Virus record (IMG/VR): IMGVR_UViG_3300023435_000687
Coordinates: 1 to 28,406 of that record
Direction: 5' to 3' (one strand)
Origin: a virus
DNA length: 28,406 nucleotides
Part shown: in pieces, positions 5,518 to 27,671 of the stretch
How positions within the stretch are numbered: the stretch's first letter is position 1
Layout: every line of letters starts with the position of its first letter
The notes under the pieces: generated by a model
The model's input: only the letters and a program-made list of their open reading frames with translations
Told to the model about the DNA's origin: nothing
The model's database searches: none
Translations under genes and position numbers: made by a program

Positions 5518-5912
5518 TAGGAAGCAACCTCCAAGTTGGTGAACTCAATTTTCAATTTACGGTAGTAGCCACCCATGACCCTATCCTCTTCAGTGTCCTC
5601 GGGCCAATGCATGATGCCAGTGAGCGTCAAGAACGTACCGTCGTCAGATCGGGTCTTAATAAAGATAGTATCACTCTTTAGATATGTTGCACCACTGGTA
5701 ACATAAGCACGGAGTGTGTTTAGATCCACCTGCGAAATAATGTCGAAGTGCCAGGCACAACTTGGTAATCCGTCACCTTCGGTTTGGCCATCTCCTCGAG
5801 TGTAAACTACTGGCCACCGGACAAATTCTCCCGTAGGCACGACACTAATTATATCTTCTACGTATAGCATCGTACCCAATGTTGCTCCAATCTTATATTC
5901 GTAGTCTGCCAT
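5517..5912 (-). CDS. Distal tail protein-like, downstream of tape measure
   Basis: This 131-residue protein has its ATG overlapping the tape measure stop by one base (TAATG), and the same junction occurs at its own end. It is beta-rich with alternating polar and hydrophobic stretches (SDTIFIKTRSDDGTFLTL, YYRKLKIEFTNLEV). In long-tailed phages the gene just after the tape measure usually codes for the distal tail protein or an adaptor to the tip. Position is the main evidence. It is shorter than classic Dit proteins, so it may be a tip adaptor instead. Confidence 0.6.
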   Translation of the reverse strand: MADYEYKIGATLGTMLYVEDIISVVPTGEFVRWPVVYTRGDGQTEGDGLPSCAWHFDIISQVDLNTLRAYVTSGATYLKSDTIFIKTRSDDGTFLTLTGIMHWPEDTEEDRVMGGYYRKLKIEFTNLEVAS

Positions 5913-8900
5913 TACCGGGATACCCTCCTACCCACTTCTGCAAAGACTTCTTCAATGATTGGCACGACTACAGCTTCAAGAGACTCCTGGTCAATGTGGT
6001 CGGGTACTCCTTGGAACTCAAAGACATGGTGCGTAGAGCCACCTATACTCAGTGCGTCCGTTAGGGCACCCTGTGTAAGTGGACCTAAGTGCTGCTCCAG
6101 GTTACGAGTTGTATCTGTGTTAAGGACAAACTCTCGACCCCGTTCACCCGTCATAATTGGACCCAAAGCATACCCACCGCTAGCAAACCCCGGCAGGTCC
6201 CAACCCCAATTGCCGTAGGGCTGGGCTACGCTACCTCCGTAGGGAGCCCAATCCCCAATCTGACCTCCAGCTACTGTACCTGTAGGCGGGTGACCTATAG
6301 GCCACGGCATCGGAGTAGGTGACAGCTCCGTAGGAGACGTAAAGGCCCAAGCGTTCTCTGTACTTCCTCCGCTGCTGCCCGAGAGCATTTGGGACATTCG
6401 TGCATAAAGAGGGCTCATGTTCGTTATGAAGTCTTGAGCCTGCTTGAGGAGGTTCGCGTAGTGCATCCGAACGTACTCCTCCTCTGTCTGCATCAAGCCC
6501 CACACCCGACCAATGTGCATGAGTAGCTCCATACGTTGTAGCCGACCCTTTTCCTCTTCGGCTACTCGTGCCTCTTCCTTACTACGCTCGTACTCAATTG
6601 CCCGCTCCCCCTGTGCACGCTCAAAGTCTTCTTGTCGCTGTTCTGCCTGCAGATCGAAGTTCTCTTGCAGGTCTGCTTCCTGACGCTCGAAGCTTTCCAC
6701 CGCATCGGCTCGCTGCTCCACAAACTGCTCCTTGAGCTCCTCTCTACGCTCCTCCCCGTCCTCTCTAAGGTCGTCGATACTCTGCTGAGTATCCTTACGG
6801 ACATCCCCCTTCTGATCCTCACGATCTTCGATCATCCGTGAACGACGCTTCTTGTACTCCTTCATCTCCTTCAGGATAGCTATAGCGTCACGCTTGGCTA
6901 TATGTTCCATCATGACATCATCGTAATCTTCTTTTAGACGACGTAAGCTCTTCTGGAAGTCCTCCTCCCCATTGAGTAGCCTCTCGTGCTGCTGCTCCCG
7001 AATGTCCGCTTCCTGTTCTGCACGGTCCTCAACTAGGTCAGCAAAGGCTCTAGCCTCTGATACGTCGATGTCGGCCATTTGACGTTCGAGGTCTTCCTTA
7101 GCCCGTAGTCGCTGCCGATCGAAGCTCTGCTGGGCTCGTAGTACTTGGCGCCCAAAGTCTTTCTCAGTCCGTATTCGGTCGCGATTGAAGTCTGCATCCC
7201 GCCGCTTCCACTCCGCCTCAAAGTTTGCCTTCTCGAGGAACGCCTGTTGCTTGTATTCGTACATCGCCTGTGCAACACTAAGCTGTGATGTCATTACAGG
7301 TGCAGGAAGCGACTCAAATATTCCACCGACGGGTATTCCAGCTCTAATAGCTTCTACTTCCTCTTCACGCTTCCTAGTAAGGTCTGCATAGTGTTTACCT
7401 CTAAAGGTATATTTATCTACAATGTCCTTATCAGAGACTCCCAACGCCTCGAAGATTGTACCTACAGGTAGTGGTACGCCGAAGGCAGGCGACCCTGGGA
7501 GCTGTGTTCCTATATCCCACATTGCAGCAGGAATACCGAGGAGACCCATGTCCCAGTATGGCTGAGCTTTTTCCTCTATTGCTCTTGGAATGCCAAGGTC
7601 CCACTTTTTACCAATTTCCCATACTATTAAGCGGAGAGCCTCAGAAATTGCGATCGTCGGAAGTATGACCTTTCCAGCCGCTATAGCTCCAGCATACACA
7701 CCTTTCCATACTGACTGTAGCTTGTTAAGACCTGCAGGAGGTATCACAACATACTGCTTATTATATTCTTCTACTCGCTGCTTAGTAGTCATACCCATGA
7801 ACGCTTCGTAAGTCGTGCCCCCACGAGATACTCCTCGCGTGGTAATCTCGTCAAGCATCGTCCGCATCCCGAACTGAGCAACTGCCAATTGGAACTGTGC
7901 TACTGCTGACTGGAAGATTAAATAGTTAGCAGCAATACCAAGAGCTGTTCCTGCAACTCCCATCAACTTACCTATACCTACTAGCGCTACTCCGGTACCA
8001 CCAAGAATCGTACCGAGGAACGGGAACTTCGCAGCAAGCCGAGTAAGCCCTGCCGCTATGTCTGCTATCGACTCTAGTGGCCCTGACATTGTCTGACCCC
8101 AGGCATCTCCCATAGCTATAGCAGCAGCTTTCCACGACTGCTCAATACGTGCAAGCTTTGTAGACAGCGCATTCTCAAGGAGATCGACCTGACCCTCCAT
8201 TAAGTCGGTAGCAGACTCCACTGACCATGCAATGCCAGTAGTTTCCTCAACGAACCCCTTGTAAGCCTCTGTCTCCGCGTCGCGTACTCCTATCATTATG
8301 TTAGCATACGCTCGCATTGCATTGATACCATGCTTCCGAGCTTCTGTCTGGACACTAACTAGCTGGGTTATAGCTGGCAGCGACCGTGCAGTATTTACAT
8401 TAGCAAGGAACTCTACCTTTGCTGCCTCAGTCATATTTTCAGTTGCAGCAGCAAGTAGGTCGATGTGCGCCGCGTACCCCATATACTCTCCTTCAGGGAA
8501 CACAACATCCTTCCATGACTGCCCTACTGCAAGAGTAGAGGCTAACACCTTGTTCATGTTCTCTTCGTAGTCCCCAGTCGGCTTAACGGCGCGTACAAAG
8601 AACATTCGCTGAGCTCTACCAGCCATCGAGCCTCGTATGTTAGCATCTGCTAGCATACCAGTAGCAGCTCCAACTTCCTCAAAAGCTACACCCAAGTCGC
8701 GTGCTAGAGGACCTACCATCTTAAACGCTTGTCCGACGTCCGATAGTGTCGCGAACGACTTAGCTGCAACGTAGTTGAGTACTGCTGAGATGTAGTTTAC
8801 ATCCTTAAGCCCCATGCCAAACTCAGCCATTGTACCGCCGACGGCCTGCATTGTAGAATCCAACTGCTCACCACCTAAAGCTGCTAGGTATTGAATCTGG

Positions 8901-11900
8901 ATCGTGTCCGCCAACATTGCGTTGACTTCTTCTTCGCTCTTGACAACCATACCAGTACCTGCAGCCCACTGACGCATACCCTCAGCAATCTCTGTAGGGC
9001 TAAATAGACCAATGTCTGCCGAGGCTTGTAGTGCTGCACGTGACAGCTCTCCATGCAACTCAATAGGAGCTTCCATAGCTGCACCAGCTCGAGTAACTGC
9101 AGCATCAAACTCCCTGAATGCGTCTGAGGATATCGCTAAGGTATTCAGGATCTTCTGTCCAGCTCCCTCGAAGCTACGCCCGACCCACTCCATAGCATAG
9201 CCTAGCCGTCGTAGGCCAAAGTACTGCATCGTAGCTCGGTTTAGCGCTTGCCCAAATTCGTCGGCGTACTTACCCGCATCCATATATACCCAGGGGTCCC
9301 AGGGAGCTCCTCCACCAGCACCGCCAGCACCGCCAGCACCGCCGGTAGTTATAACAATGGGACCTCGCGGGGGAGCTCCTCCACCAGTTCCTCCTGCTCC
9401 TGCTCCCGCGGCAGGAATTCCATACTGTTGCTGCAGAGCTGCAGTCGTATCTGCTTCTTGAGCAGCTGCTGCCGGTGCCGCACGTACCTGTGCTGCTGTC
9501 AACCGTGGCCGAGCTGCTGCCTTAGGCATGACGTGAGCCGTAATAGGAATACGCTCACCGCCAGCTCCAACTCGGTAGACACCTTCAAGCTCCTTCTCTG
9601 TCTGTACAACCTCTTCCTTATCCCGTTGTCTCTGGTCCGCATGTACCTTGCGCTGCTCAGCCATCTCTATAGCTCGAGAGGCTTCCCAGATCCGTTGCGT
9701 CTGTGTGCCGGCTATTCCGATACGAGCTCTGGTTGCCCGCGCTGCTACTGTTGTTGTCTGGGCCAGATCGGCGTTAGCTGCAGCAACATTCTGCTCAGAT
9801 TGTGTCCTAGCCCCGATCATTCGAATAGCTGACCCAACAGCCTCCGCGGCTAGCTGCTCACGTACCTGCTCAGCTTCGGTAACCCTACCTGCTAGGGCTA
9901 CTGCGGCCTCCTTCTGGGCTATCTCGACGGCCAATGCTGCAGCAAAGTCAGCCTGTACCTGTGTAACCACCCTAGCCTGAGCTGCAGCTTGCTCCCCACC
10001 AGCGTCATAGCCAGGTAGCGCAGCTCCTCGTGGTGGTGTAAGTAGGAATTCGGGGTCGACCATTCGCCAGTCGCGAGCTCTGCCAGGTTTGGGAGGTGCA
10101 ATAAGCTGCTCTTCGACAAAGTCTCGGTGAGCTACAGTAGCTCTAACCCAAAAGTCTACCTTGCTCTCTACAACGCCGTAGTGCTGTGCAGCAGCTGTCT
10201 TTGCCTTCGCATAGTACTTTTGTGCAGCCTGTAGCTTGTCAGCCTCAAGTCGTAGTGCTTTCTCAGGAGTGAAAACAACATCCCAGTCGGATCCTGGCCG
10301 TGCTGTACCCTGAGCTCTACTACCTGCAAGAGCAAATTCTCCTGCTATCGAGGGCCTTGGAGGAGTTATGAGACCGGGAAACGGTGCTGTTGGGCCATAC
10401 ATTTGGGGAGCAAGAGTACCACGCCACTGGGGTAGCTGGCGAAGTTGTGCAGCTCTACTGATACCTGTCGGAAGCGCTAGCACAGGGGGGCCGGGGGGTA
10501 ACCTTAGTGGATACTCACGCGTAATAATCTCTTGAGCTACATCACGCAGTAACGCCTGAGCTTGTCGCTCTGCTCCGCGGCGTATTTGAGGCTGGTCGTA
10601 AAGGCTCGGTTCCGCGACAAACGAGCCTCTCCGTGCTAACGCTTCCGTAGAAGCTTCTCTAACAAATGCTGCTCGGCTCGTTGGGTCTATTGGAGGGCCT
10701 GCAGGGGCTGACACTGCTTCGTCAATAGCCCTGTTAACTTCAGATAGCTCGCGACGGATCTGCTGCTTAGATGTGAGCTGTGCTGCAGGAGACGTAACAT
10801 TCCTAACAAGTCGAAGGTAGTCATCTCGGTAGGTACCAACGAACTTGTTGAAGTTCGCCTCCGTCCGACCTACCATGGTGAGGATGTTAGCTACACCCTC
10901 TTTACCAGCTGCAGGCTCCCTCATAAGTCTGGTGCGCTCGAAGGAGAATTCCTCAAACGCCTTCATCACCCTAGGTTCTACCTTAGCAAGGAGAGCTGCC
11001 TCATGTCTATGTCGTGACTCGACATCCTGAAGGCCTTGTAGCCCCTCGAGTTGTAGGGCTATCTCCATGCGGCGCCGGTGCAGGTCAGAGGCTCCAACAG
11101 GCTGGTCGTACATCCTAAAGCCGGCTGCAGTTGTCTCATACTCAACAGCAGGGATCTCTTGTTCTTTTGATATTCTCTTGGCCTCACTAAGTCGCTGCGC
11201 AGCTACTTGGGTCTTAGAAAGGGGCTGAAGCTGCTCGGGTGATAGGAGTATGCGGTTCGCCATCTTCTGGAACTCCGCATACTGTCGCAGCTGAATCTCA
11301 AATAGCTCCATCTCAGCCTTGCCGGCACCTGTCGGCAGGACCGGTCGGTAAGCCTCAGCTCCGCGGGGTGATCGTTGAAGAGTACCAACTTTGACCTCAC
11401 CCTGCTCGTTGAAGTACACCGCGGCAGGGAGTTTCTTTACGTCCAGGCCACCCATACCCATTGCGGACTTAAGCTGGTCAGCTCGAGACTGCCTAGCTCC
11501 AGCACGGAACAGCGGCTGTATATACTGACCGAAGGTAGTTTCTAATGTATCAAGTTGACGCTTGCGTCTGACGAGCTCCATAACGTCTGGAGCGGCTTGA
11601 ACAGGGTTAGTAGTAATTGGAGGGAGGCCAATTGTAATCTGCTCCATACCACGAGCACGAACACGCCGGGCCTCTCCTCCAGCCTGTTCTACCTCGGCAA
11701 GGTAGTCGCCGAGCTTTTCCTGCACCCTACTCACTAATGCAGCGGTACGCTTCTCTGAGATCTGGAAGTTCTTGGTCATTACCTCGACGAGTCGCTGCTG
11801 TGACTGGAGTGACTCAGTTGTAAGCTCTCCTTGAGCATGCAGACCCGCGATCTGTTCGGCGACGGAGCGAGCGGTTATGTAGCCGCCAGAAGATGTTCTC

Positions 11901-12424
11901 TCTCGTTTCGCTGTGTCAGCGGCTCCAACGGGTCGTCCAGCCTTTCCCGTTCGAACTACTTCGACCCCCGCCTTCCTGGCGGTGCTAGCTAGCTCGGCAA
12001 AGGCTCCAGTAGCCTCCTTAGTCTCGGTAGTGAGTTGGTGGAGTTCCTGTGTTGGCGTTCCTACGTATCCCGAGAGTGACTTGAAGTGAGTGTTGAGGTC
12101 CCTAGCAACCGTAGAAGCCTTGCCGGCTTCTACTTGGATCTTCTGGAGAGCGAAGGTGCCAGCTCTGAGGTTAAGTACGAGGTTGCGAGCTTCCTCGCTC
12201 GATGCTATCTGTTCAACTGTAAACTGCTTCTGCAGCCGGGTAAGTTGTTTAATCGAAGCCGATCGATCGACTGCTATTTGCTTGAGCCTATTAACATCGT
12301 ACTCGATAGCCTTAGGGCTCGCAGTAGAAGCCTCAACAGCCTTCATAGCACTGGCGATTTCGGCCTTCAGCCGCTCAGCCCTTAGTTCGATCTCATAAAT
12401 GATTGAGTACTTTGATTGAGGCAT
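5912..12424 (-). CDS. Tape measure protein with embedded nucleotidyltransferase-like domain
   Basis: This 2170-residue protein sets tail length and is expected to leave the virion during DNA delivery. Residues 1-1000 are mostly helical and carry a nucleotidyltransferase-like motif set at 701-757. A Gly/Ala-rich linker follows at about 1000-1045. Then comes a TP901-type tape measure core at about 1050-1400. Hydrophobic segments lie near 1465-1490 and 1575-1602, and a highly charged Glu/Arg/Asp coiled coil at about 1725-1965. A C-terminal GERGREFVLNTDTTR motif near 2092-2107 is typical of tape measure proteins. At the usual 0.15 nm per residue the tail could approach 325 nm, less if the N-terminal part is globular. 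The core normally lies near the N-terminus, so the long N-terminal module is unusual. No lytic transglycosylase or peptidase motif was seen. Confidence 0.93.
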   Translation of the reverse strand: MPQSKYSIIYEIELRAERLKAEIASAMKAVEASTASPKAIEYDVNRLKQIAVDRSASIKQLTRLQKQFTVEQIASSEEARNLVLNLRAGTFALQKIQVEAGKASTVARDLNTHFKSLSGYVGTPTQELHQLTTETKEATGAFAELASTARKAGVEVVRTGKAGRPVGAADTAKRERTSSGGYITARSVAEQIAGLHAQGELTTESLQSQQRLVEVMTKNFQISEKRTAALVSRVQEKLGDYLAEVEQAGGEARRVRARGMEQITIGLPPITTNPVQAAPDVMELVRRKRQLDTLETTFGQYIQPLFRAGARQSRADQLKSAMGMGGLDVKKLPAAVYFNEQGEVKVGTLQRSPRGAEAYRPVLPTGAGKAEMELFEIQLRQYAEFQKMANRILLSPEQLQPLSKTQVAAQRLSEAKRISKEQEIPAVEYETTAAGFRMYDQPVGASDLHRRRMEIALQLEGLQGLQDVESRHRHEAALLAKVEPRVMKAFEEFSFERTRLMREPAAGKEGVANILTMVGRTEANFNKFVGTYRDDYLRLVRNVTSPAAQLTSKQQIRRELSEVNRAIDEAVSAPAGPPIDPTSRAAFVREASTEALARRGSFVAEPSLYDQPQIRRGAERQAQALLRDVAQEIITREYPLRLPPGPPVLALPTGISRAAQLRQLPQWRGTLAPQMYGPTAPFPGLITPPRPSIAGEFALAGSRAQGTARPGSDWDVVFTPEKALRLEADKLQAAQKYYAKAKTAAAQHYGVVESKVDFWVRATVAHRDFVEEQLIAPPKPGRARDWRMVDPEFLLTPPRGAALPGYDAGGEQAAAQARVVTQVQADFAAALAVEIAQKEAAVALAGRVTEAEQVREQLAAEAVGSAIRMIGARTQSEQNVAAANADLAQTTTVAARATRARIGIAGTQTQRIWEASRAIEMAEQRKVHADQRQRDKEEVVQTEKELEGVYRVGAGGERIPITAHVMPKAAARPRLTAAQVRAAPAAAAQEADTTAALQQQYGIPAAGAGAGGTGGGAPPRGPIVITTGGAGGAGGAGGGAPWDPWVYMDAGKYADEFGQALNRATMQYFGLRRLGYAMEWVGRSFEGAGQKILNTLAISSDAFREFDAAVTRAGAAMEAPIELHGELSRAALQASADIGLFSPTEIAEGMRQWAAGTGMVVKSEEEVNAMLADTIQIQYLAALGGEQLDSTMQAVGGTMAEFGMGLKDVNYISAVLNYVAAKSFATLSDVGQAFKMVGPLARDLGVAFEEVGAATGMLADANIRGSMAGRAQRMFFVRAVKPTGDYEENMNKVLASTLAVGQSWKDVVFPEGEYMGYAAHIDLLAAATENMTEAAKVEFLANVNTARSLPAITQLVSVQTEARKHGINAMRAYANIMIGVRDAETEAYKGFVEETTGIAWSVESATDLMEGQVDLLENALSTKLARIEQSWKAAAIAMGDAWGQTMSGPLESIADIAAGLTRLAAKFPFLGTILGGTGVALVGIGKLMGVAGTALGIAANYLIFQSAVAQFQLAVAQFGMRTMLDEITTRGVSRGGTTYEAFMGMTTKQRVEEYNKQYVVIPPAGLNKLQSVWKGVYAGAIAAGKVILPTIAISEALRLIVWEIGKKWDLGIPRAIEEKAQPYWDMGLLGIPAAMWDIGTQLPGSPAFGVPLPVGTIFEALGVSDKDIVDKYTFRGKHYADLTRKREEEVEAIRAGIPVGGIFESLPAPVMTSQLSVAQAMYEYKQQAFLEKANFEAEWKRRDADFNRDRIRTEKDFGRQVLRAQQSFDRQRLRAKEDLERQMADIDVSEARAFADLVEDRAEQEADIREQQHERLLNGEEDFQKSLRRLKEDYDDVMMEHIAKRDAIAILKEMKEYKKRRSRMIEDREDQKGDVRKDTQQSIDDLREDGEERREELKEQFVEQRADAVESFERQEADLQENFDLQAEQRQEDFERAQGERAIEYERSKEEARVAEEEKGRLQRMELLMHIGRVWGLMQTEEEYVRMHYANLLKQAQDFITNMSPLYARMSQMLSGSSGGSTENAWAFTSPTELSPTPMPWPIGHPPTGTVAGGQIGDWAPYGGSVAQPYGNWGWDLPGFASGGYALGPIMTGERGREFVLNTDTTRNLEQHLGPLTQGALTDALSIGGSTHHVFEFQGVPDHIDQESLEAVVVPIIEEVFAEVGRRVSR
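9302..9387 (-). repeat. Gly-rich linker repeats in tape measure gene
   Basis: A 17-bp direct repeat occurs at 9302-9318 and 9371-9387. It is flanked inside by a 9-bp unit (accgccagc) repeated over about 9314-9343. The DNA codes for a Gly/Ala/Pro-rich hinge between the N-terminal module and the tape measure core. Expansion or contraction by slippage would keep the frame. Confidence 0.8.
10055..10342 (-). other. Nucleotidyltransferase-like (MNT/Pol-beta superfamily) domain in tape measure
   Basis: This covers residues 695-790 of the tape measure protein. The segment LAGSRAQGTARPGSDWDVVF at 699-718 matches the superfamily signature hG[GS]-x(9-13)-Dh[DE]h, with G701, S702, D713 and D715. A third acidic residue, D757, sits in KVDFWV, matching the later h[DE]h strand. 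All three expected metal-binding acidic residues are therefore present. Flanking sequence is Pro-rich on the N-terminal side and Pro/Gly-rich on the C-terminal side, as for an inserted globular domain. Substrate and activity cannot be told from sequence. Confidence 0.7.
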
Positions 12425-12427
12425 AAC

Positions 12428-13006
12428 TTACCTGCCTTCTAGAGGTTTATTCAGTCTAGGTATTATGATCTCGTTGTAGATCCGCCGACCTACCCGCTGA
12501 CCCTCTCGACCAATTGGAAGCATCGGCCGAGACGGAATCGTAGCGATCCAAGGCTCCCAATCGTACCCAGTTTCGGCCTTGATCCTGGTGCGGCCCACAA
12601 TGTGCTCACCGAAGTGGTGAGTCTTAAAGAGTGGATGGGCCTCGTAGTCGAACCTAACAAACGAGTTGGTGGAGCCACTAGTGGGGCGAACGATGTAGAA
12701 GCCTCCGAGGGTAGCCTTTTTCAGACCCCCGGTCCGCTGTAAGATCTTCCCTAAGAAGACCCTCTTCTTACTCCTACCGCGAAGCCGCTTCTCGACCGTT
12801 TGCTTCGTCAAATTCGGCCAGCGAGGAATACCCTCACTGTCGAATATCCGAGAGGTCTCTTGTTGTAGGAGTGCTACAATGTCTACCGGAGACTCAGCTA
12901 TTACTTGGTTGATCCGGTTACGGGTCTCCTTAACAAGGTCATCAACAGCTCCACGGATGACCTCTTTACACGCAGCCTTAACCCTAAACCTTATCTGCCA
13001 CTCCAT
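12428..13006 (-). CDS. Mu gpG-like virion morphogenesis / tail completion protein
   Basis: This 192-residue basic protein begins at the ATG at 13006, with AGGT about 6 bases upstream, and overlaps the chaperone extension frame by 23 bases. It carries a run of features recalled from the phage virion morphogenesis (Mu gpG) family: a helical N-terminus, RWPNLTKQTVEKR at about 62-74, a KILQRTGGLKKA segment at about 87-98, and a C-terminal RPMLPIGREG. Proteins of this type join head and tail or complete the tail. The position is odd, because such genes usually come before the tail tube gene, whereas this one is between the chaperones and the tape measure. Confidence 0.6.
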   Translation of the reverse strand: MEWQIRFRVKAACKEVIRGAVDDLVKETRNRINQVIAESPVDIVALLQQETSRIFDSEGIPRWPNLTKQTVEKRLRGRSKKRVFLGKILQRTGGLKKATLGGFYIVRPTSGSTNSFVRFDYEAHPLFKTHHFGEHIVGRTRIKAETGYDWEPWIATIPSRPMLPIGREGQRVGRRIYNEIIIPRLNKPLEGR

Positions 13007-16416: not shown

Positions 16417-18345
16417 TTACCAAGGCCTCCATACCGCATCTACCGAGCGTCCATGTCGAATCAACGTTCCCCTAACCGGCAGACCAGGACCGTGGATCGC
16501 AAAGTAGATATGTTGGTTACTACTATAGTAGTCGCTCTCAACTACGTTAAAGCTCTTGAGTATGTCGAGCCACTGCTCCTTCCGCATCAGTCGTTCGGTG
16601 CCTGTCTTAACGGGATAGTACACTGACGGAACGGAGAACACAAACCACTCACTGAGCTTAAGTACTGTCATCAGGATACGTCGTATGTCTCCGTTGGAGT
16701 AGTGCTCCAGCATTCCCTGACTAGTACACATGAGGTTCTCTCGTACCATTCTATATCTGTTTAGAAAGTTGGCACGGAGGTCGAGAACGTCGAGCCCTAC
16801 TAGCACAGGGGGGTGGGGTAATCCTTCGAACAGTAGTTGACAACTCGCAAAGACAGACGGATCCTTGTCAATCCCAATGACCCGAAGTCCTCTGTCCGCA
16901 AACATCTTCGTCGTAACCCCGCTGCCAACCCCGAGATCGAGAATGGTCGCATTGGGCGGCTTGAGTCTAACTACTGCCCGTACAAAGGGGGCATGGACCC
17001 TTGAGAGCTCCTTAACTGTTCCGGGGTCGTAGCTTGAGTACGTTTCCGTATTGGGCTGTGTGAGTACTCGGCGGTGGTCAACTGTAGCGAATGGGTTCTC
17101 AAGTGCGTCGAAGGCTGTCTTAAAGTCTGCGGCGACTCGATCGCCACCCCAAGTATTCGAGAACCAGATAGCCCCAGCGGCAGCCCGTGCGTTAGCCTCC
17201 TCTCGGTGATTGTAGATAGACCGTAGAACGTCTACTGCGTAATCCCAATCCGGGATGCTCCACGTACCACCAAGTCTGCACTCCTCAACTCGAGAGTCTG
17301 GAACGGGCCAGTCGTACTTTGGGTCACAGACAGCTAGGTGCCCAGTGTTCTCTGACAGAATCGTCGGAACCCCCATAGCTATTGCTTCGCGAGCCGGCAT
17401 TCCAAACCCTTCTCCCTTAGACAGGATCAGTGCACAGTCAGCAGAGTCTACGAGCTCACGCATCTGCTGTCTGGTCCACCTCTGGTCACTGTAGATCTTG
17501 ATCCGGGGATCATCCAGCTCGGGAAGCTGGTGGTGATCGTAGCCAAAGAACCCCGTGCGCGTCTTGAATACCATTTCAACATCTGGGTACTTATCGATCG
17601 GAAACGCCCTCTTGAATACCTCAACGGTTTCTACGGGCGATTTGCGCGCTGTTAATATTCCGAAGCTGATGATCCTAAACTTATCCTTAGCCTTACGAGG
17701 AGTTGGTACTGTGCCTCTCGGTGCGCAGAAGATCGGGTCGATTGCTAGAGTGGTTACGTAGATCGGCCGTCGGACGAACTCAGAGAATACATCCTTGCTA
17801 TACTGTGTAGGCACGAACAGGGTGTCGACATCGTTGCAGGAGTGCAACCATTCTGGGTGGGTCTCCAGAGGATCCGAAGCTTCGTACATTGTCAGACCGA
17901 TCTTGTATGGCGTCGGCAGCTTCTCGAACTCGCTTGGAGTCGCCATACACAACCCCACAAGGTGGGGCACGTCGATGGGCTTCTCGAGTAGACTAATAGT
18001 CTCGGGTAGCAGGCCCTCTTTTATTAGGAACCACAAGTGTCTTGCGGATAGCTTTACTCCGTGTGAGGTAAGGCAGTGAACAATGTTCTCCGCCGCAGTA
18101 GCATAGCCATCTCCCACAGAGAACGGAGACATCCAGAGGAGGTTATACGCTTCCTCCGAGTCAACCCAAACTCGCCTGTTGTCTGGGATAGCAGACTCAT
18201 CCAGCTCGGCCATTCCACGAGCCTTGAGCCACAGTGCAGTATCCCAAGGCACAGGCTCCGACCATACCCCGGGCATTAGAGTTAGGTGAATGTTCGACAT
18301 TACCTGCACCTTGCCGGTAACGTTCTTTACACTGACAGCATCCAT
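16417..18345 (-). CDS. Glycosyltransferase (GT4-type)-methyltransferase fusion
   Basis: The start is set at the ATG at 18345, which has GGAGGT four bases upstream. A longer frame reaching 18513 would overlap the capsid gene and has no such site. The 642-residue protein has a GT-B glycosyltransferase half. Its N-lobe includes AAENIVHCLTSHG near 58-70, its C-lobe begins at about 218 (FRIISFGILTARKSP), and the EGFGMPARE motif (E-x7-E) lies near 309-320, as in family GT4. The second half is a class I SAM methyltransferase with LDLGVGSGV near 467-477 and VIGIDKD. It lies between the major capsid gene and the connector genes, so glycosylation and methylation of a virion protein or its glycan is a reasonable guess. 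The substrate is unknown. Confidence 0.85.
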   Translation of the reverse strand: MDAVSVKNVTGKVQVMSNIHLTLMPGVWSEPVPWDTALWLKARGMAELDESAIPDNRRVWVDSEEAYNLLWMSPFSVGDGYATAAENIVHCLTSHGVKLSARHLWFLIKEGLLPETISLLEKPIDVPHLVGLCMATPSEFEKLPTPYKIGLTMYEASDPLETHPEWLHSCNDVDTLFVPTQYSKDVFSEFVRRPIYVTTLAIDPIFCAPRGTVPTPRKAKDKFRIISFGILTARKSPVETVEVFKRAFPIDKYPDVEMVFKTRTGFFGYDHHQLPELDDPRIKIYSDQRWTRQQMRELVDSADCALILSKGEGFGMPAREAIAMGVPTILSENTGHLAVCDPKYDWPVPDSRVEECRLGGTWSIPDWDYAVDVLRSIYNHREEANARAAAGAIWFSNTWGGDRVAADFKTAFDALENPFATVDHRRVLTQPNTETYSSYDPGTVKELSRVHAPFVRAVVRLKPPNATILDLGVGSGVTTKMFADRGLRVIGIDKDPSVFASCQLLFEGLPHPPVLVGLDVLDLRANFLNRYRMVRENLMCTSQGMLEHYSNGDIRRILMTVLKLSEWFVFSVPSVYYPVKTGTERLMRKEQWLDILKSFNVVESDYYSSNQHIYFAIHGPGLPVRGTLIRHGRSVDAVWRPW

Positions 18346-18354
18346 AGCACCTCC
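18343..18354 (-). promoter_or_regulatory. Strong SD that sets the glycosyltransferase start
   Basis: GGAGGTGCT-ATG on the coding strand places a perfect SD next to the ATG at 18345. It lies outside the capsid gene and argues against the longer overlapping frame. Confidence 0.8.
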
Positions 18355-18366
18355 GTTCGTGTAGCC

Positions 18367-18400
18367 CCGGGGTAGGACTAGACCAGCAGTCCGACCCCGG
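18367..18400 (-). terminator. Strong hairpin after the major capsid gene
   Basis: Arms 18367-18379 and 18388-18400 pair at 12 of 13 positions with one mismatch (18374/18393), and the loop is eight bases. The GC-rich stem lies in the 89-base gap between the capsid stop and the glycosyltransferase SD. No T-run follows, so partial termination, attenuation or mRNA 3'-end protection are all possible. Confidence 0.65.
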
Positions 18401-18434
18401 AGCCATGACAGGTCGATTAGGGCGATTAGGTCAG

Positions 18435-19616
18435 TTAGGTTATCGTAACCGTCCCAAACAACTCTGCCACAACCATCTTCTTCGCGTTTCTGGTCCGCAC
18501 GTTTCGAGACCACTTATCCGTGTTCAGGTAAGCACCCGGAAGAGTGCTATCGTCGTACGGGAGAAACTCTGCATACACAAGTGGCATTGCTGCCAAAGGA
18601 ATATACGGTGCGAAGATGTACCCTGCATCTGTCTGCGACCTGGGGTACACACCCATAATTGCTTTACTGGCGTTGATGTACACCGAGGTGTACACATCCC
18701 ATAAGCCATTCAGGGTTCCGATAAGCTCAACACCTACCGTTGAGGGGTTCAGGTCCGGCCGGGCACGTGGCTCAGCCTTGTAGTCTGAAGCCTTGCGAAG
18801 CCACTTGATGACGTTTCTTCCGGCCACAAGGTAATCAGCCTTGCGGTAACGGTTCGCGAAGATCAGATCCTCAGTGTCGATGAACGCGTGGACCAACGTT
18901 TCAGCCCACTCCTTCGTCGTGTAGCCAGCTGGCACCGTACTTGACCAGTTGGTATTTCCGGCTCCTGCACCATTGAGTACTTCATTGAGGCATCGTTCTT
19001 CAAGCTCGCGCGTGATTTCAGACGCCATCTGATCAATGAGTTCGGCCTCAACGTCGATGCCTAAGGCACCACGTGCGTCCTCCATCACCTCAGTTGACCA
19101 GGAAGCACCTAGGATATCCTTGGTGGCCGTGAACGTCTCCGATGTGATGACCATCTTGAGACGTTTCGGGACTCCGTTCTCGATGTTGTAGGCGTAAGGG
19201 CTGTCGGGAACAGTGACAGATGAGTCCGAATCGTCCTCCCTTTGGAAGTCCTGGTAGAAGACCCGGCCCACACCGCCTGACATTGCTGGCAGAGGCTGTA
19301 CCGATGCAATCTTCATCAGGAACATCTCCGGGAAGACTTTTCTTATGATGGGCAATGCGTACTTCTGGGGCAGAGTCAGGTCAGTAGTCAACGTAGCCTC
19401 AAGGGCTGTTCCCTGAGCTGAGAATATCGCCTGGTTCTCGAAGATCTGGGCCATTGCCGGCCAGTAGCTCTTGGGGATCGGCTTTAGCCCATACGCCTCC
19501 CCGTCCAAGTACCATTCCCACTTCTTTACTAGGGCCTCACGCTCCATACGTTGCTGCTTCTGCTGCATCGTACCCTCGCCGAGGTTGTCTAGCATCTCTT
19601 GGTTAAATGCGTTCAT
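18435..19616 (-). CDS. Major capsid protein, T4 gp23-like
   Basis: This 393-residue protein has GGAGG 7 bases before the ATG at 19616. It follows the protease-scaffold gene, the standard place for the capsid protein. Motifs recalled from the T4 gp23 family appear in order: LPIIRKVFPEMFLMKIASVQ at about 88-107, WSTEVMEDARGALGIDVEAEL at about 173-193, and YIFAPYIPL near 330-340. It is about 120 residues shorter than T4 gp23, so an insertion domain may be missing. The N-terminal 50-70 residues are charged and helical and could be removed by the prohead protease, as in T4. A GC-rich hairpin follows the gene. Confidence 0.85.
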   Translation of the reverse strand: MNAFNQEMLDNLGEGTMQQKQQRMEREALVKKWEWYLDGEAYGLKPIPKSYWPAMAQIFENQAIFSAQGTALEATLTTDLTLPQKYALPIIRKVFPEMFLMKIASVQPLPAMSGGVGRVFYQDFQREDDSDSSVTVPDSPYAYNIENGVPKRLKMVITSETFTATKDILGASWSTEVMEDARGALGIDVEAELIDQMASEITRELEERCLNEVLNGAGAGNTNWSSTVPAGYTTKEWAETLVHAFIDTEDLIFANRYRKADYLVAGRNVIKWLRKASDYKAEPRARPDLNPSTVGVELIGTLNGLWDVYTSVYINASKAIMGVYPRSQTDAGYIFAPYIPLAAMPLVYAEFLPYDDSTLPGAYLNTDKWSRNVRTRNAKKMVVAELFGTVTIT

Positions 19617-19667
19617 GTTAGATCCTCCAAATCCAAAAAATCCAAAATCTGTCTTTAGGTTGTCACC

Positions 19668-20183
19668 CTAAGCAGGCCGCCCGCCCGCAAGTCGAATCAT
19701 AGTTTGTTGGTCCTCGTTCACTCTGATCTTTCTTGCGGTACTACTTTGGGCACGATCGGGTGGGTGCGCAGCTCCGTCGACGTCCCCGCTCTCGCTTGTA
19801 CTGTTAAGCGAGCTCGCTAGGGCCTCGTCTAGTGCGTCCTTGATCGCGTCGTGAGCAAGGGCCTGTACTTCCTCCTTCGTTGTCGGCTTACCGGCACGAA
19901 TCTTCTCCGCTACCAGCTTTGACACGCCAACGTGGGCTGCCTCGGCGATTGCAAGCTCTACATCTAGCTCACCAACTCGCGCCTTAGCAACGGTCAGGTC
20001 CTCATTCAACTTTACAGACTCCTCAGGGTTGGTAGACGCTTCAAGTGCCTGAGTCAGACTTGCTAACTGGTTAGTTAGCGCGCCGACTTCTTCCTCGTGG
20101 GCGTTAGCGAACTCGCCCTTAAGTTCCTCAATCAGTTTGGGGTTCTTCTCCTTTAACTGGTCAAGGGTAGCTTCTTCCAACAT
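19668..20183 (-). CDS. Nested scaffold protein from internal start
   Basis: The in-frame ATG at 20183 has GAGGAGG five bases upstream (GAGGAGG-AAGAT-ATG), an ideal ribosome binding site. It would make a 171-residue protein (MLEEATLDQLKEKN...) holding just the coiled-coil scaffold. Lambda C/Nu3 and similar phages use the same nested design to make excess scaffold over protease. The SD also encodes Glu-Glu-Glu-Asp, so it could be chance, but it falls right at the protease-scaffold boundary. Confidence 0.6.
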   Translation of the reverse strand: MLEEATLDQLKEKNPKLIEELKGEFANAHEEEVGALTNQLASLTQALEASTNPEESVKLNEDLTVAKARVGELDVELAIAEAAHVGVSKLVAEKIRAGKPTTKEEVQALAHDAIKDALDEALASSLNSTSESGDVDGAAHPPDRAQSSTARKIRVNEDQQTMIRLAGGRPA

Positions 20184-20858
20184 ATCTTCCTCCTCAAATT
20201 CAGTTTTAGTTTGTGTATAGGTAACTTGGGGAGCAGACTCAAAGATTGTGTCGATCCCAGCATCTGCGACCCCTGGACGGGCTGTAAAGTCGATACCGGA
20301 CAGTGTTGCGTTCTCCATTACCTCTACATCTTGGCCATTAACCTTACCCATCCGACTTGTAACCGTACGACCGTCGGCTCGGATAGAAGTAGACCCGATA
20401 TTGCTGTGACGGAGCAGTATCTGGACGTCCTGTCCCTCCATTGTGGGCATGATAACAGCTTTGAACTTTACCAGTTCCTTACGAGCGTCGGGACGGAAGA
20501 GTTTTGTAATCTTCCCGATGGGAAGCTCCTCCACAGTTGGCGAGAAGAACCCACCAGTCCCGTAAGCCTTTCCGTGGCTAGTGAACATCGTAGGGATACC
20601 ACCCTCTGCGATGAACCTATTCGTGTTCTCGATAAGGCCCTCGTTAAACTCTTTCGAGTAGTAACGCATGTTCGCACTTACGATGTTGTCCCTTAGAGCA
20701 ACACCTTCGACGTTCATGATGCTATCGTTGTCGCCCTCACTCGACTCACTAATCACTTCTAGAGCCGACTCGACGCTTCCCAGTTGGATGAGTAACCCAG
20801 TATCTCGCTCAGTCTCCTGAGGTGTCGTCGTCGTCGGTGTCGTCGGTCGGTTGTCCAT
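19668..20858 (-). CDS. Prohead protease-scaffold fusion
   Basis: This is a 396-residue protein. The start is taken at the ATG at 20858, with AGGAGG upstream in the portal gene end. A TTG two codons earlier is less likely. Residues 1-210 look like a prohead serine protease of the T4 gp21/U35 type: a candidate catalytic His in FTSHGKAYG (about residue 95) and Ser in ATLSGIDFTARPG (about 187), the usual H...S spacing. Residues about 225-350 are Glu/Ala/Lys/Leu-rich coiled coil (DQLKEKNPKLIEELKGEF...), as in scaffolding proteins. An internal strong SD and ATG at the domain boundary suggests a separate scaffold product. It acts in prohead assembly and maturation. Confidence 0.8.
   Translation of the reverse strand: MDNRPTTPTTTTPQETERDTGLLIQLGSVESALEVISESSEGDNDSIMNVEGVALRDNIVSANMRYYSKEFNEGLIENTNRFIAEGGIPTMFTSHGKAYGTGGFFSPTVEELPIGKITKLFRPDARKELVKFKAVIMPTMEGQDVQILLRHSNIGSTSIRADGRTVTSRMGKVNGQDVEVMENATLSGIDFTARPGVADAGIDTIFESAPQVTYTQTKTEFEEEDMLEEATLDQLKEKNPKLIEELKGEFANAHEEEVGALTNQLASLTQALEASTNPEESVKLNEDLTVAKARVGELDVELAIAEAAHVGVSKLVAEKIRAGKPTTKEEVQALAHDAIKDALDEALASSLNSTSESGDVDGAAHPPDRAQSSTARKIRVNEDQQTMIRLAGGRPA
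20189..20195 (-). promoter_or_regulatory. Internal SD for nested scaffold
   Basis: GAGGAGG on the coding strand, five bases before the in-frame ATG at 20183, at the junction between protease and coiled coil. Confidence 0.6.
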
Positions 20859-22275
20859 TGTCAACTACCTCCTGTGCTTTCTGCTTTACGCGGTCTGCGA
20901 CCGCGGTCCACTGTGCTGGTGTCATCTGCAGGAACTTTGCTGCGATATACTCATCGTCAACCACTCCGAGGCTCACAAGAGTCTGAGCTGCTGAGGCAAA
21001 CGCTTGGAGCGCCTGTGCCTCCTCAACCACATCCAATCGTGAAGGATTGGGCCACTCAATTACGTACTGCACGTCGCGAGGATTGATCCCCTTTAACAGA
21101 AGTGTGAGTGCTACAAAGTGGTGAACGAAACCACTATTTACTGACTGAACTCTGCGAATCGTACGAGCAAAGCGTCTATCCTGGTACGACAGAGTCGCTT
21201 TGGCGTTGATATCTCTTTCCAACCCCAGATACGCTTTCGGCACCCGCATCGAAGTAAGGATCTTATTCTGGTAATACTCTACGGGATCCAGATGAGTGAA
21301 CCCAGTACTCGCGGTGTCGAGAACACTGACGTCGGTCAGACCTTCGTGGATCTGGCCACTGAAGTCGTGGAACCCTTTTCCGATAAACAAGTCCTTTACC
21401 ACCGACAGTTCCTCGTCTCCTAGAACCCCGGATACTACCTTCTTCTGGGTGAGGCCCCGCTTGAACCTCTGGATATAGGCAGTAGCCTCCTTTTCGGTCT
21501 TGCCCGTAACGTCAAGCTTGAATAGCAGCCGAGCAAAAGCCCGAGTTAGCCAGTTAACACACAGAGCTTCCTCCATTGCCTTCAGCTTCCGCCACGAGTG
21601 TCGAGCCGTGTAGCACATCGACCGCCCATACGGACTACTTCCTCGTCGGTTCCACCTAATATGCTCGACCTGCCACGCACGGAACCCCGCGATAAATTTG
21701 TTAGTTCGCGGGACGTACTGCTCAAACGCAAAGTTGCCTTCGGTGCTGCCCCGAAGCAATAAACCTACTTCGTCCTCATTCCGCACCATCGAGTTGGGCG
21801 GCATGTGCATCACCCGAACAAGCTGGAGGTTGGGTCCAAGTATGTACTGCTGGAAGTTGTCTCCATACAACAGAGTGTCCCGAGTAATCCCATACATCTT
21901 CTCGGCTAGTCGGCACTGTGCAATCGAATCCTCTACGTACTTCTGCACACGTTTAGACACTCCACTTTCCCATACGACCCGAAACGACTCCTCAGCACCC
22001 ATCTCCGAGTTCACAGCTTCATCGGCCAACACGTCTAGTGCCACTGCAACCTCGTCGATGGTGTCCTCCATCTCCTCAGCGTCGTCGTAGATCTCTACCC
22101 GCTCCGTCGAGATGTCGAACCAGGCAGAAGTTAAAGCGGACATACTCGCATCGGCTATTCCAACAGTAGTTGTTTGGGTCTGCTTGGGTACCTGAGTACT
22201 AAACGACTTCGTGAGGAGTCGTACAAACTTTGCCAGGCCCCTCGGAGCTTCTACAATGCCGCCATGGGATTCCAC
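20809..22275 (-). CDS. Portal protein
   Basis: This 488-residue protein starts at a GTG at 22275 with GGAGGAG five bases upstream, overlapping the terminase end by 25 bases. It lies between terminase and protease, as in most tailed phages. Features are IADASMSALTSAWFDIS near the start, a helix-rich wing, a GLERDINAKATLSYQDRRF segment near 355-375 that resembles the T4 gp20-type portal region before the DNA channel, and an acidic C-terminus (DDTDDDDTSGD). The portal forms the dodecameric DNA entry ring at one vertex. Family placement with gp20-like portals is inferred from motif likeness and from the gp23-like capsid nearby. Confidence 0.82.
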   Translation of the reverse strand: MESHGGIVEAPRGLAKFVRLLTKSFSTQVPKQTQTTTVGIADASMSALTSAWFDISTERVEIYDDAEEMEDTIDEVAVALDVLADEAVNSEMGAEESFRVVWESGVSKRVQKYVEDSIAQCRLAEKMYGITRDTLLYGDNFQQYILGPNLQLVRVMHMPPNSMVRNEDEVGLLLRGSTEGNFAFEQYVPRTNKFIAGFRAWQVEHIRWNRRGSSPYGRSMCYTARHSWRKLKAMEEALCVNWLTRAFARLLFKLDVTGKTEKEATAYIQRFKRGLTQKKVVSGVLGDEELSVVKDLFIGKGFHDFSGQIHEGLTDVSVLDTASTGFTHLDPVEYYQNKILTSMRVPKAYLGLERDINAKATLSYQDRRFARTIRRVQSVNSGFVHHFVALTLLLKGINPRDVQYVIEWPNPSRLDVVEEAQALQAFASAAQTLVSLGVVDDEYIAAKFLQMTPAQWTAVADRVKQKAQEVVDNGQPTDDTDDDDTSGD

Positions 22276-25265
22276 AGTATCTCCTCCAATTCTTCCCTCG
22301 ATAGTGGCCTCGACGTATCTAAACCTGAAAACTCACCTACTAACTGCTCTTCAGGTATCTCGTCACGTTCACGCTGCTGAGCCAGGAGCTCCATTCGAAC
22401 CCAGTCGCCGCTGCTTCCAGCAACAGGAGCCTGCTCCGCACCAAACTGAAAAGTATCCGCGATCGTTACCTCTGTTGTAGCCAGTGCCTCCCATTGTTGA
22501 GCCAGACGCCAGCAACCCTCAAGTGCATCCAATCCGTCATCGTGCGGGAGCAGCGGGGCCTGTTCCATCTCCTCGTACAGAAGATCGAAGCTCCCAGTTG
22601 CCCTGTCGGGGAACGCTAAGTAGTCATTCTCGATGTCGGGCTGCAGAGACTGAATCCGCATTTCCTTTCCGCCCCGGTGCGACTGTTGTATTGGCACTAC
22701 GGGAAGGTATGCACCCTGCTCACGAGACTCCTTAGCCGACTGCGATGCGAAGAATGCCTGAAACTGAACGGCCTCGATGCCCCAGCGAGCTACCCGATAA
22801 CGTCTGCCCCATCTAATCTGGTCCTGAAGTAACGTATCCGGGGTCCGCCTCTTCATATCTGCCTCAATTACGAACCCCAGCCCCGAAGGAGCTCTTGCAA
22901 TAATAATAATAGCGCTGTAGTCAGCTGCTTGAGTCTTACCCAATGATGGATCGGTGAACGCAAAGAGCTTACAGTCGGACAGTTTAACAGGCAAGTGTTC
23001 AAAGTGTGGAGTCAATACAACCTCGTCACCTATCCACTCCCGTGAATACGCCGCCCACCTTGGGAAGAGCCGATCCTCTGGAGCCACCGGAATGTTCTGG
23101 AGTTCCATCGAGAACGACGCCGAACCTTCGGATGCCTTCATGACCATGAGTTGGTAGTACGGATAAGCCTCCGGCCAAGCACTTACTGCACCGGCATCCA
23201 TTTCCACCTTGCGCTCTAGGTAGAACGCATAGGCATCCTTCTCCTTATTAGGGTTCTCTATACTAGTGAGTATCTTTCGCCACTCGTTCCACAACTCAGG
23301 GTTGTCGGCCCACCGTGCAACCGCTCGATAGGTAGTGTGCTGGAACATCGGGTTTAGCACACATTTCCGTACCAAACACTCTGAGTGGATAAAGTTTCCA
23401 ATCACTAGAATCTTTGTGTTTTCCCACCCAGCACGAACCACGGAACGGTTAAACCAGTTCTGGATGTCCCGACGCATCGTCGAACTCTGGACACCCTTAA
23501 CGTCTTCTGGATCGTCAACGATTATCAGATCCGGCCTCCATTGCCGGAACTTTCGACCGCGAATCTTCATTCGGGACCCCAGGGCAACTACTTTTACGTA
23601 TGTGGTCGTTTCGATATCATCTTCTTGCCACTTATTGCCCCGGAGGTCCCCAAAATCTTCAGCGATACGTTCGTTATTCTCGAACTCGTACTTCAAGGTC
23701 GCAAGGTGACCCTTTGCTTGTGGAAAGGAGTCACTTATGATTGGTATGAAGTGCCGCTTCTCGTAGCAAACACACCACGCAGGAAGCCCTAACACAGCCC
23801 AAGAAGTATTATGAACGACGAAGCCTTCTGCTACATAGTTATGATCCGGATGCTCGACCTCGATGTCGTATGTGTGAACCTCACCCTCATACTCAATGCT
23901 TACTACTGAGTCCCAAAAAACGTCGCTATCTACTAGAGTCTGAAGCTTATCTGATTTATCTAACGCAGCTACCTTTGCTACTCGAGTCCTTGACGAGTCC
24001 CTCCGATCGGGTACTACATGGAACCCGTGCTTCTTCTTGAATGCACCTTGACGCGTATTCATCAACTTATGCCACCCATAAGGCACGCAGTCTAGTTTGG
24101 CACCGCGTCCGTCGGTCCCTAGAACCTCAATGTTCATGAGCTGGGCAAACTCTTCACTTGTCTGATTTACAATAACTCTCCAAGCTCTCCCGAATCTACC
24201 CTCTGTAGGCGTCTCGTATACTTGCGAAACCACACCAAAGCGGCCTAGCAACCGCTGCACGTCTCGTACAAGGCCCTCAGACATCGAACAGTACTCATGA
24301 CAAGTACCCGAACCTCTTGTAGTAATGTGTCCATCACCCTTCCACAGGGCTATCAAGAACGTTTCTACATCTTCGATAGGCCAACCAAATACCTCTCCGG
24401 GTATCCTCTTGGTGTACGAGTTTGAACCGTACAGTCCGTACCTACGAGCCCAGTCCCGCGCACCTGAACAGTAATAAGTGATCCCGTCTTCACGTTTGCC
24501 AATCCGTCTAACTCCCCAACCCCTAGACTCTGCAGCTTTCCTAAAATCAGTTACGCTGTCAGAATCTACTTGGGTAAAGGTAACGCCTCCCCCCGAGAAG
24601 CCTCCCTCAGAGATCATCCAGCCTAGAAGCTTGGGATCCACAGAATGATCCGGCTTCAATACTGCCTCAGGAGTCCAGCTACGGACCGCAGCAACCCTAT
24701 CCTGCACGGTAAGGTTTTGTAAGTTGCGCCTCTTGGGTAGGCCCTTCTCAAGTACCGTAAACCCATGCTCGCCTGTTGTAGCAATTCTACGGCCTGAACG
24801 TGTACGCAGCCACCAAACCTCCTTGACACCTTGGTCGTATACAGCAACTACACTAGTTGGTACGAGCTTCATACTCTCGTAGTCCAAACACATAACTCGA
24901 TCGCCTGGTAGTATGTACTGAACCTCAACCTCGGTCCCGTCACTCATTAGGACCAGAGTTTCTGCGACGTCGCACTTTCCGTGCCCCCTAGGCCACGCTA
25001 TTGCGAGGTTCTGTCGGCCCGGGGTCTCTAGCATCTCCTCTACGGTCTTGGTAAATCCCTTGTGCATCGCAGCCACTGGCTTCGTGAAGTGGTTCCGTAG
25101 GTAGAACTGGCAGAAGAACTGGAGATCCAACTCCCCCAACTGCTTACGCAGCTCCGGCGCACTTAGTGAGACGTCCATCCACCCACTTGCAACGAGCTGC
25201 TCCTCAGTGAACCTCCGCTGCAACGTGTCAGCTATCAGTTGCGTATCGTACGAGTCAAGCTTCAT
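22251..25265 (-). CDS. terL: Terminase large subunit with intein
   Basis: The 1004-residue precursor would yield a 615-residue terminase after removal of a 389-residue intein. The ATG at 25265 directly follows the TAA of the radical SAM gene. The N-extein ends in AWPRGHGK (residues 90-97), the Walker A loop, and the C-extein resumes with Thr-Ser, completing GK-T/S. Walker B is PDLIIVDDPED near 578-588. The nuclease domain has FAFTDPSLG (D772) and HDDGLDALEG (D909, D910, D913), the metal-binding acidic residues. The enzyme packages and cuts DNA at the portal. No small terminase is recognised in the window. Confidence 0.93.
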   Translation of the reverse strand: MKLDSYDTQLIADTLQRRFTEEQLVASGWMDVSLSAPELRKQLGELDLQFFCQFYLRNHFTKPVAAMHKGFTKTVEEMLETPGRQNLAIAWPRGHGKCDVAETLVLMSDGTEVEVQYILPGDRVMCLDYESMKLVPTSVVAVYDQGVKEVWWLRTRSGRRIATTGEHGFTVLEKGLPKRRNLQNLTVQDRVAAVRSWTPEAVLKPDHSVDPKLLGWMISEGGFSGGGVTFTQVDSDSVTDFRKAAESRGWGVRRIGKREDGITYYCSGARDWARRYGLYGSNSYTKRIPGEVFGWPIEDVETFLIALWKGDGHITTRGSGTCHEYCSMSEGLVRDVQRLLGRFGVVSQVYETPTEGRFGRAWRVIVNQTSEEFAQLMNIEVLGTDGRGAKLDCVPYGWHKLMNTRQGAFKKKHGFHVVPDRRDSSRTRVAKVAALDKSDKLQTLVDSDVFWDSVVSIEYEGEVHTYDIEVEHPDHNYVAEGFVVHNTSWAVLGLPAWCVCYEKRHFIPIISDSFPQAKGHLATLKYEFENNERIAEDFGDLRGNKWQEDDIETTTYVKVVALGSRMKIRGRKFRQWRPDLIIVDDPEDVKGVQSSTMRRDIQNWFNRSVVRAGWENTKILVIGNFIHSECLVRKCVLNPMFQHTTYRAVARWADNPELWNEWRKILTSIENPNKEKDAYAFYLERKVEMDAGAVSAWPEAYPYYQLMVMKASEGSASFSMELQNIPVAPEDRLFPRWAAYSREWIGDEVVLTPHFEHLPVKLSDCKLFAFTDPSLGKTQAADYSAIIIIARAPSGLGFVIEADMKRRTPDTLLQDQIRWGRRYRVARWGIEAVQFQAFFASQSAKESREQGAYLPVVPIQQSHRGGKEMRIQSLQPDIENDYLAFPDRATGSFDLLYEEMEQAPLLPHDDGLDALEGCWRLAQQWEALATTEVTIADTFQFGAEQAPVAGSSGDWVRMELLAQQRERDEIPEEQLVGEFSGLDTSRPLSREELEEILWNPMAAL
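23808..24974 (-). mobile_element. LAGLIDADG intein in terL Walker A
   Basis: This covers residues 98-486 of the precursor. The intein starts with Cys98 (CDVAETLVLMSDG, block A) and has a TTGEHGF block B at about 163-169. Two LAGLIDADG-type helices lie at LLGWMISEGG (213-222) and FLIALWKGDG (303-312). It ends with HTYDIEVEHPDHNYVAEG then FVVHN (blocks F and G). The C-terminal HN and the +1 Thr are the standard splicing residues. Both homing motifs keep an acidic residue (E220, D311), so the endonuclease may be active. Codon boundaries were checked against the DNA at both ends. Confidence 0.93.
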
Positions 25266-26977: not shown

Positions 26978-27671
26978 TTGTCTGCTCCTCTTCTAGTATA
27001 GGTCCGTGTACCCAGAATCGGTTCTTCTGTAGCTCCTCAGGTACTCCGACCCAATCATAAGTCCAAAAGTTATTGCCAAATGCATGACCGACGGCCCGAC
27101 CCACGCCAGAACTCGAGTTGTAATAGTCATCGCCAAAGATCGTACCCCCCGAGGCAAGAAGCGGCTGGGAGATCGTAATGTCTTCGTATGCAGACTCCTC
27201 AGTGTGTTCTGCGTCAACGTAGATGAGACTAGCTTCTACGTCGAGCTCCTTCAGAGCTGCTACTCCATGGATAGACATAAGTGGTAGCGGAGTGATGTAA
27301 TCCCGGACACCGTACTCCATTACATTCGAGAGAAAGAAGTAGTACGCCTGTGGATAGCCGTTCCGCAGCGCTAAACACTCATGTGCGCCTCCGCGCCACA
27401 TAACATTGCCGGTTAGCCACGTATCGATGCAGACGATCTCACAGTCGAGGCCCAGCTCCTTAACCGCCATGGCCATCGTTATTGCAGAGCCGCCGTACCA
27501 AGTACCTAATTCAACAATGACACTAGGTCGAATCTGCTCGACCAACCTCCGGAACAGCGACGAGTCCCCGCCACCGGGGGAGTGGCCCAGACCGTACCTG
27601 TGCGGAACCGGTACAAAGCCCTCATATGGATCAACCCTGTGCAATGCATCCCTAATCTTCGGCATATTCAT
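26970..27671 (-). CDS. Class I SAM-dependent methyltransferase (Methyltransf_24 / CmcI-like)
   Basis: This is a 233-residue protein. The ATG at 27671 lies within the end of the preceding glycosyltransferase gene, after GGAGAGG. Motif I is VIVELGTWYGGSA near 50-62, motif II CIDTW near 82-86, and SLIYVDAEHTEESAYEDI near 148-165 gives the post-motif acidic and His residues. GGTIFGDDYYN follows. This pattern is typical of the Methyltransf_24 and cephalosporin hydroxylase-like group often found beside glycosyltransferases. It likely methylates a sugar or small acceptor. It is coupled by overlap to both neighbours. Confidence 0.8.
   Translation of the reverse strand: MNMPKIRDALHRVDPYEGFVPVPHRYGLGHSPGGGDSSLFRRLVEQIRPSVIVELGTWYGGSAITMAMAVKELGLDCEIVCIDTWLTGNVMWRGGAHECLALRNGYPQAYYFFLSNVMEYGVRDYITPLPLMSIHGVAALKELDVEASLIYVDAEHTEESAYEDITISQPLLASGGTIFGDDYYNSSSGVGRAVGHAFGNNFWTYDWVGVPEELQKNRFWVHGPILEEEQTSE

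Follow-up and report, generated by a model that had tools for sequence, protein, structure and literature searches.

A 28,406-base record of an uncultivated virus, referred to below in its full length as the window, encodes a tail tape measure protein (TMP) in which a nucleotidyltransferase (NTase) domain of the pol-beta/MNT type is very probably embedded. The domain lies in a long N-terminal region that is missing or replaced in related phages. On balance, we favour the view that this region is an exchangeable cargo compartment of the TMP, here holding an MNT-type NTase that would be delivered on infection and would transfer a nucleoside monophosphate to the host.

The tape measure gene and its surroundings

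The preliminary description of this DNA, made from the letters alone, had placed a nucleotidyltransferase-like domain within a phage TMP at positions 10055-10342, which on the minus strand correspond to residues 695-790 of the open reading frame (ORF) considered here (Table 1). The frame matches PF10145 with 74.1 bits (1.8e-20; cut-off 33.2) and TIGR01760 with 75.3 bits (4.3e-21; cut-off 28.8), the PhageMin_Tail/TP901 domain falling at approximately residues 1104-1340. Genes for a neck/tail completion-like protein, a gp23-type major capsid protein, a T4-type portal protein and terminase are found on the same strand. Tape measure proteins set the length of the tail and normally leave it just before the DNA. 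Besides serving as rulers and forming pores, they are known as carriers of cell-wall hydrolases, to which class most of the known TMP enzymatic domains belong.

Several other features of the window were recorded. T4-like head genes (gp20 portal and gp23 capsid; 18435-22275, minus strand) are paired with a TMP of the TP901 type. The gene for the terminase large subunit (22251-25265, minus strand) is split by an intein carrying a LAGLIDADG endonuclease (PF14890, 105-486; PF14528). A glycosyltransferase-methyltransferase fusion gene (16417-18513, minus strand) adjoins the major capsid gene, and two relatives (L006 and L026) have similar long genes next to the capsid gene. Together with genes for a radical SAM/SPASM protein (25266-26114), a second glycosyltransferase (26111-26977) and a methyltransferase (26970-27671), the fusion gene looks like part of a modification cluster within the morphogenesis region.

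Table 1. Features of the tape measure gene region, with window coordinates, strand and supporting evidence.
Feature	Position	Strand	Evidence
Tail tape measure protein (TMP), 2170 aa, one ORF	5912..12424	-	PF10145, TIGR01760, several PHROG tape measure families
TMP residues 1-33, N-terminal segment like that of relatives (YxxxYxFxxE, then helix)	12326..12424	-	by-eye comparison, BLAST among relatives
Optional N-terminal insert, residues ~36-1047 (~1,010)	9284..12319	-	missing or replaced in relatives
Predicted pol-beta/MNT-type nucleotidyltransferase (NTase) domain, core residues 695-776	10097..10342	-	PF01909, AF2 with MNT alignment, Foldseek
Motif I, GSRAQGTARPGSDWD, residues 701-715 (G701, S702, D713, D715)	10280..10324	-	sequence motif
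KVDFWV, residues 755-760, with candidate third acid D757	10145..10162	-	predicted strand 3; aligned with VDL of MNT proteins
Conserved TMP domain (TP901/PhageMin_Tail and following), residues 1049-1524	7853..9280	-	profiles and comparison with relatives
Tail completion/neck-like neighbour gene, directly upstream of TMP	12428..13006	-	phrog_26, E 3.7e-4; PF05069 weak

Motif, family and predicted structure of the domain

The residues on which the NTase assignment was originally based, G701-S702, D713-W714-D715 and D757 in KVDFWV, are all present at the positions claimed. All but the last belong to motif I, GSRAQGTARPGSDWD, which fits the NTase motif G-S-x(9-13)-D-x-D; D757 (in SKVDFWV) follows 42 residues past D715, the last Asp of motif I. 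Tested on the whole TMP, PF01909 aligned with residues 696-760 at 17.4 bits (E 0.0058), below its cut-off of 21 bits. Such a score is what one might expect if there were no NTase and the motif merely matched by chance within an alanine-rich helical protein; a deliberately loose three-acid set was indeed present in 31% of whole-protein shuffles, and a model computed without an alignment was helical (see below). However, the strict motif GS[RYA]AxGx[AS]RxxSDxD occurred in 0 of 2,000 whole-protein shuffles, and excised pieces containing the domain scored above the PF01909 cut-off (21.3-23.4 bits, E 8e-5 to 4e-4). Because the loose set is common in shuffles and the strict motif never appears, the significance of the match resides in motif I; the three acids by themselves do not confer it.

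The specificity of the motif was assessed by running a DNA pattern for GSRAxGxARxxSDWD on bacterial and archaeal genomes, which yielded 80 loci, each with a motif-bearing ORF. A profile scan of 44 proteins, comprising 43 sampled from bacterial genomes and the window TMP, detected PF18765 in 43 and PF01909 in 38. Since the window TMP is the one with PF01909 and without PF18765 at the threshold applied, all 43 sampled proteins match PF18765. The motif proteins sampled thus fall without exception under Pfam pol-beta NTase models, so the motif reliably marks the superfamily; this result, too, speaks against a chance match, which we hold to be very unlikely. Motif, PF01909 and TMP profiles together uphold the original proposal that an NTase domain is contained in a tape measure protein.

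The remainder of the domain was less informative. When motif I was kept and the rest shuffled, the profile score was equal or better in 69 of 500 sequences, showing that residues past motif I add little to it. D757 is a plausible third acid that does not reach significance by sequence alone. The match to NF047752 (MntA antitoxin) was partial, with 23.3 bits against an equivalog cut-off of 60, and a PDB sequence search with the domain fragment alone returned no match.

A structure of the domain was predicted with AlphaFold2 (AF2) from an alignment of 17 sequences (A4), consisting of the window and 16 MNT proteins, mostly of the three-acid type. An earlier alignment (A3), in which the third Asp was misplaced, was dropped in favour of A4. 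In the resulting model, whose residue n corresponds to TMP residue n+684, strands and helices follow one another as they should in an MNT palm (strand-helix-strand-helix-strand). The mean pLDDT is 66.6, rising to 81-91 in residues 695-714 and 735-754, where strand 1, motif I and the second helix lie. The prediction puts D713 and D715 (model residues 29 and 31) at strand 2, which spans 30-34, and D757 (73) on strand 3, which spans 72-76. When this model was compared with the PDB by Foldseek, the top matches were all MNT antitoxins, with probabilities of 0.9-1.0, a best E of only 2.7e-3 and TM values of about 0.4-0.5. The best VIA-align hit (Z 5.9) was again an MNT; unrelated folds came close behind, and the score is no better than for common arrangements. 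Modelled by AF2 without an alignment, the same fragment was helical (pTM 0.24, no confidence), a prediction of such low quality that we take it as evidence neither for nor against the fold.

The Pol-beta-like fold anticipated in the preliminary description is therefore recovered in the MNT-alignment model and by Foldseek, but not in the alignment-free model, and the arrangement of D713, D715 and D757 on strands 2 and 3 appears with the MNT alignment only. The assignment of an MNT fold draws on the sequence family and on an alignment that may itself impose the result.

The N-terminal insert in related phages

Searches with the capsid protein and with the conserved domain of the TMP supplied the relatives. 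In the ten with a complete TMP N-terminus and a short form of the protein (L006, L116, L118, L026, L122, L120, L119, L124, L123 and L117), the conserved domain begins at residues 51-227. It begins at residue 1049 in the window, 1021 in L019 and 1780 in L020; in L021, the record stops at TMP residue 825, before reaching the conserved domain. The N-termini themselves resemble one another over approximately 35 residues, whether the form is short or long, and have a start of the YxF[DE] type; BLAST matches between L021 and several short forms cover the first 31-36 or about 148 residues. Since the start of the conserved domain varies and the N-termini are alike, about 800-1,700 residues constitute an optional insertion.

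The long forms differ in what this insertion holds. In L019 (L019:3124-9384) the HEXXXH motif occurs once, as HEVFGHGVQD, and in L020 (L020:1646-10318) it occurs in two copies, HEVLGHGLQD and HEVLGHGVQD. E[TS]WA comes after every one of these motifs, and L019 and L020 share homology in this part of the protein. The L021 insert (L021:2-2476) contains HEVVHALQD, of the HEXXH form, and, towards its end, LTVYRG...ESWSVSP...ENELVLKG, a stretch that we read as resembling the R / S-x-S / E-x-E residues of ADP-ribosyltransferases (ARTs). Judged at the level of motifs, the HEXXXH stretches of L019 and L020 and the HEXXH stretch of L021 are metallopeptidase-like. None of these metallopeptidase- and ART-like stretches matched a Pfam, NCBIfam or PHROG profile, and the polyvalent-protein models PF18818 (MPTase-PolyVal) and PF18760 (ART-PolyVal) were absent from the four proteins G000, G004, G006 and G009. 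A search of 40 related records for PF01909 gave no match. Repeated DE[IL]VGHSI[IV]P segments were also noticed in the L019 and L020 inserts.

In a tree of the capsid protein, long forms occupy three places (the window, L019/L020 and L021), each beside short forms. The TMP gene could have a history separate from that of the capsid protein.

These comparisons bear on three alternatives to a working, delivered enzyme. The insert might be a former NTase that has become inert filler, merely lengthening the protein or the tail and retaining its motif through recent acquisition. TMPs tolerate length changes, the part past motif I is weakly conserved when set against MNT profiles, and no orthologues were found that could reveal selection on the site. 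Yet G, S, D and D, as well as the third D on its predicted strand, are all intact, as are the catalytic-type motifs that relatives carry at the same place (HEXXXH, twice in L020), whereas filler would need none of them. We regard inert filler as improbable and consider the predicted NTase domain likely to be catalytically competent.

The enzyme might also act in the virion-producing cell or on the virion, for instance by altering a protein of the tail or head while the particle is being built, so that no delivery would take place. This would be in line with the proposal that zincin domains in such proteins serve for processing before packaging (PMC5512222) and with the frequent observation of fragmented TMP (PMC11661146). 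However, a metallopeptidase motif was looked for in the window insert and not found, and most relatives assemble without a domain of this kind; action in the producer cell appears unlikely to us.

Lastly, a cellular MNT gene could have been joined to the phage TMP gene by faulty assembly of the record. No second record spans the domain, L002 covering TMP residues 1-147 only. We give this explanation very little credence, as the gene is a single open frame of 2170 codons, the NTase part has the same codon usage as the rest of the TMP and the other genes of this phage, and large inserts occur at this site in three relatives as well.

Possible cargo role and related systems

In the solved neck of phage 80alpha, residues 1-37 of the trimeric TMP touch the tail completion protein just under the DNA; the C-termini lie at the baseplate, and the protein is believed to exit together with the DNA as a pilot protein (PMC11661146). 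In the mechanism we envisage, the TMP would be assembled into the tail with its N-terminal part at the head end; if the 80alpha arrangement holds, the insert would be head-proximal, nearest the DNA and the last part of the TMP to exit. During infection, the TMP would pass down the tail and out before the DNA, with the globular NTase domain unfolded or stretched inside the tube, as has been proposed for Sle1 (PMC13277306), and the cargo part would enter the cell and then fold. The NTase would move a nucleoside monophosphate onto a host protein or RNA, a nucleotidylylation timed to the very start of infection; the analogy with MNT antitoxins makes AMP the probable group transferred. An NTase needs an NTP, hence most likely the cytoplasm, which would suggest that part of the TMP is an effector acting early within the host cell.

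That relatives either lack the insert or carry other enzyme-like modules in it suggests that it acts as exchangeable cargo. A delivered effector had been suggested from the outset, and the idea is now better founded because the domain sits in a variable, optional insert at what is, in 80alpha, the DNA-proximal end of the TMP. Delivery of the NTase into the host is still something we infer, at somewhat better than even chances. More tentatively, the head-proximal TMP N-terminus might be a standing cargo bay throughout this phage group, for varied enzymes that enter ahead of the DNA. If so, an NTase, zincin-type peptidases and an ADP-ribosyltransferase would have been loaded repeatedly, and the TMP would be a general effector carrier. 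A concrete site at which to seek such cargo in other phages lies after the first ~35 TMP residues. The NTase domain is small and expressible.

The MNT proteins of HEPN-MNT (type VII) toxin-antitoxin systems (7ae9, 8xeh, 6m6u; PF01909/PF18765, NF047752) share GSxxxG...SDxD with the TMP domain, whose model also puts the third Asp on the next strand. The antitoxins, however, are solo proteins of approximately 100-150 residues encoded beside a HEPN toxin, whereas the TMP domain is embedded in a large virion protein. None of the window proteins that were scanned was recognised as the product of a HEPN gene.

Polyvalent proteins of phages and conjugative elements are large proteins believed to be delivered with DNA, in which zincin peptidases (HEXXH or HEXXXH), ARTs and pol-beta NTases are combined; the pol-beta NTases were reported solely from polyvalent proteins of conjugative elements, and the tape measure is not mentioned (PMC5512222). 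The TMP and its relatives resemble them in enzyme classes, for the relatives at the level of motifs, but the Pfam models specific to polyvalent proteins match neither the TMP nor the relatives here. The TMPs of T5, TM4 and phiIPLA35 carry cell-wall hydrolase domains (PMC6116005). A built-in enzymatic domain is common to these and the window TMP; theirs act on peptidoglycan during entry, whereas an NTase, with its requirement for NTP, would most likely work in the cytoplasm. Sle1 and Tme are TMP-derived effectors of contractile injection systems (PMC13277306), which, like the window TMP, combine a TMP-like coiled coil with exchangeable functional domains. They differ in belonging to bacterial injection systems and in having their modules at the C-terminus, the window module being near the N-terminus of a phage protein; the presence of terminase, portal and major capsid genes likewise sets the window apart from capsid-less injection systems. 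The enzyme class is not new, and the novelty is that of a variant among virion-delivered multidomain proteins.

Searches for a second case covered viral contigs, phage records and genome contigs. An exact-peptide scan of viral contigs detected no relatives of the NTase region or of the whole TMP, and the strict motif with W had no match in the same contigs. Compared with phage records by tblastn, the TMP matched through its conserved domain alone, with less than 30% identity among the matches listed, and the inserts of the window, L020 and L021 gave no match; the conserved TMP domain was not found in genome contigs. No relative with the same NTase inside a TMP thus emerged from the viral-contig scans or the 40 related records.

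The general motif was found at 11 loci in viral contigs. At one of them (L259:8070-10571), PF01909 scores 33.5 bits, above the cut-off, near the end of a late-gene ORF of at least 830 residues (about 840) that runs off the record; the record also has an SU10-type adaptor gene. The NTase of L259 looks to be preceded by hydrophobic segments and an adenine methylase-like stretch. L259 and the window TMP suggest that NTases ride in large late phage proteins more than once. A long motif-bearing ORF in L251 was discarded as most likely the read-through of a solo NTase. A solo NTase with GTRAYGPAR(P/E)DSD(F/L)DIV recurs in five viral contigs (L252, L256, L257, L258 and L260).
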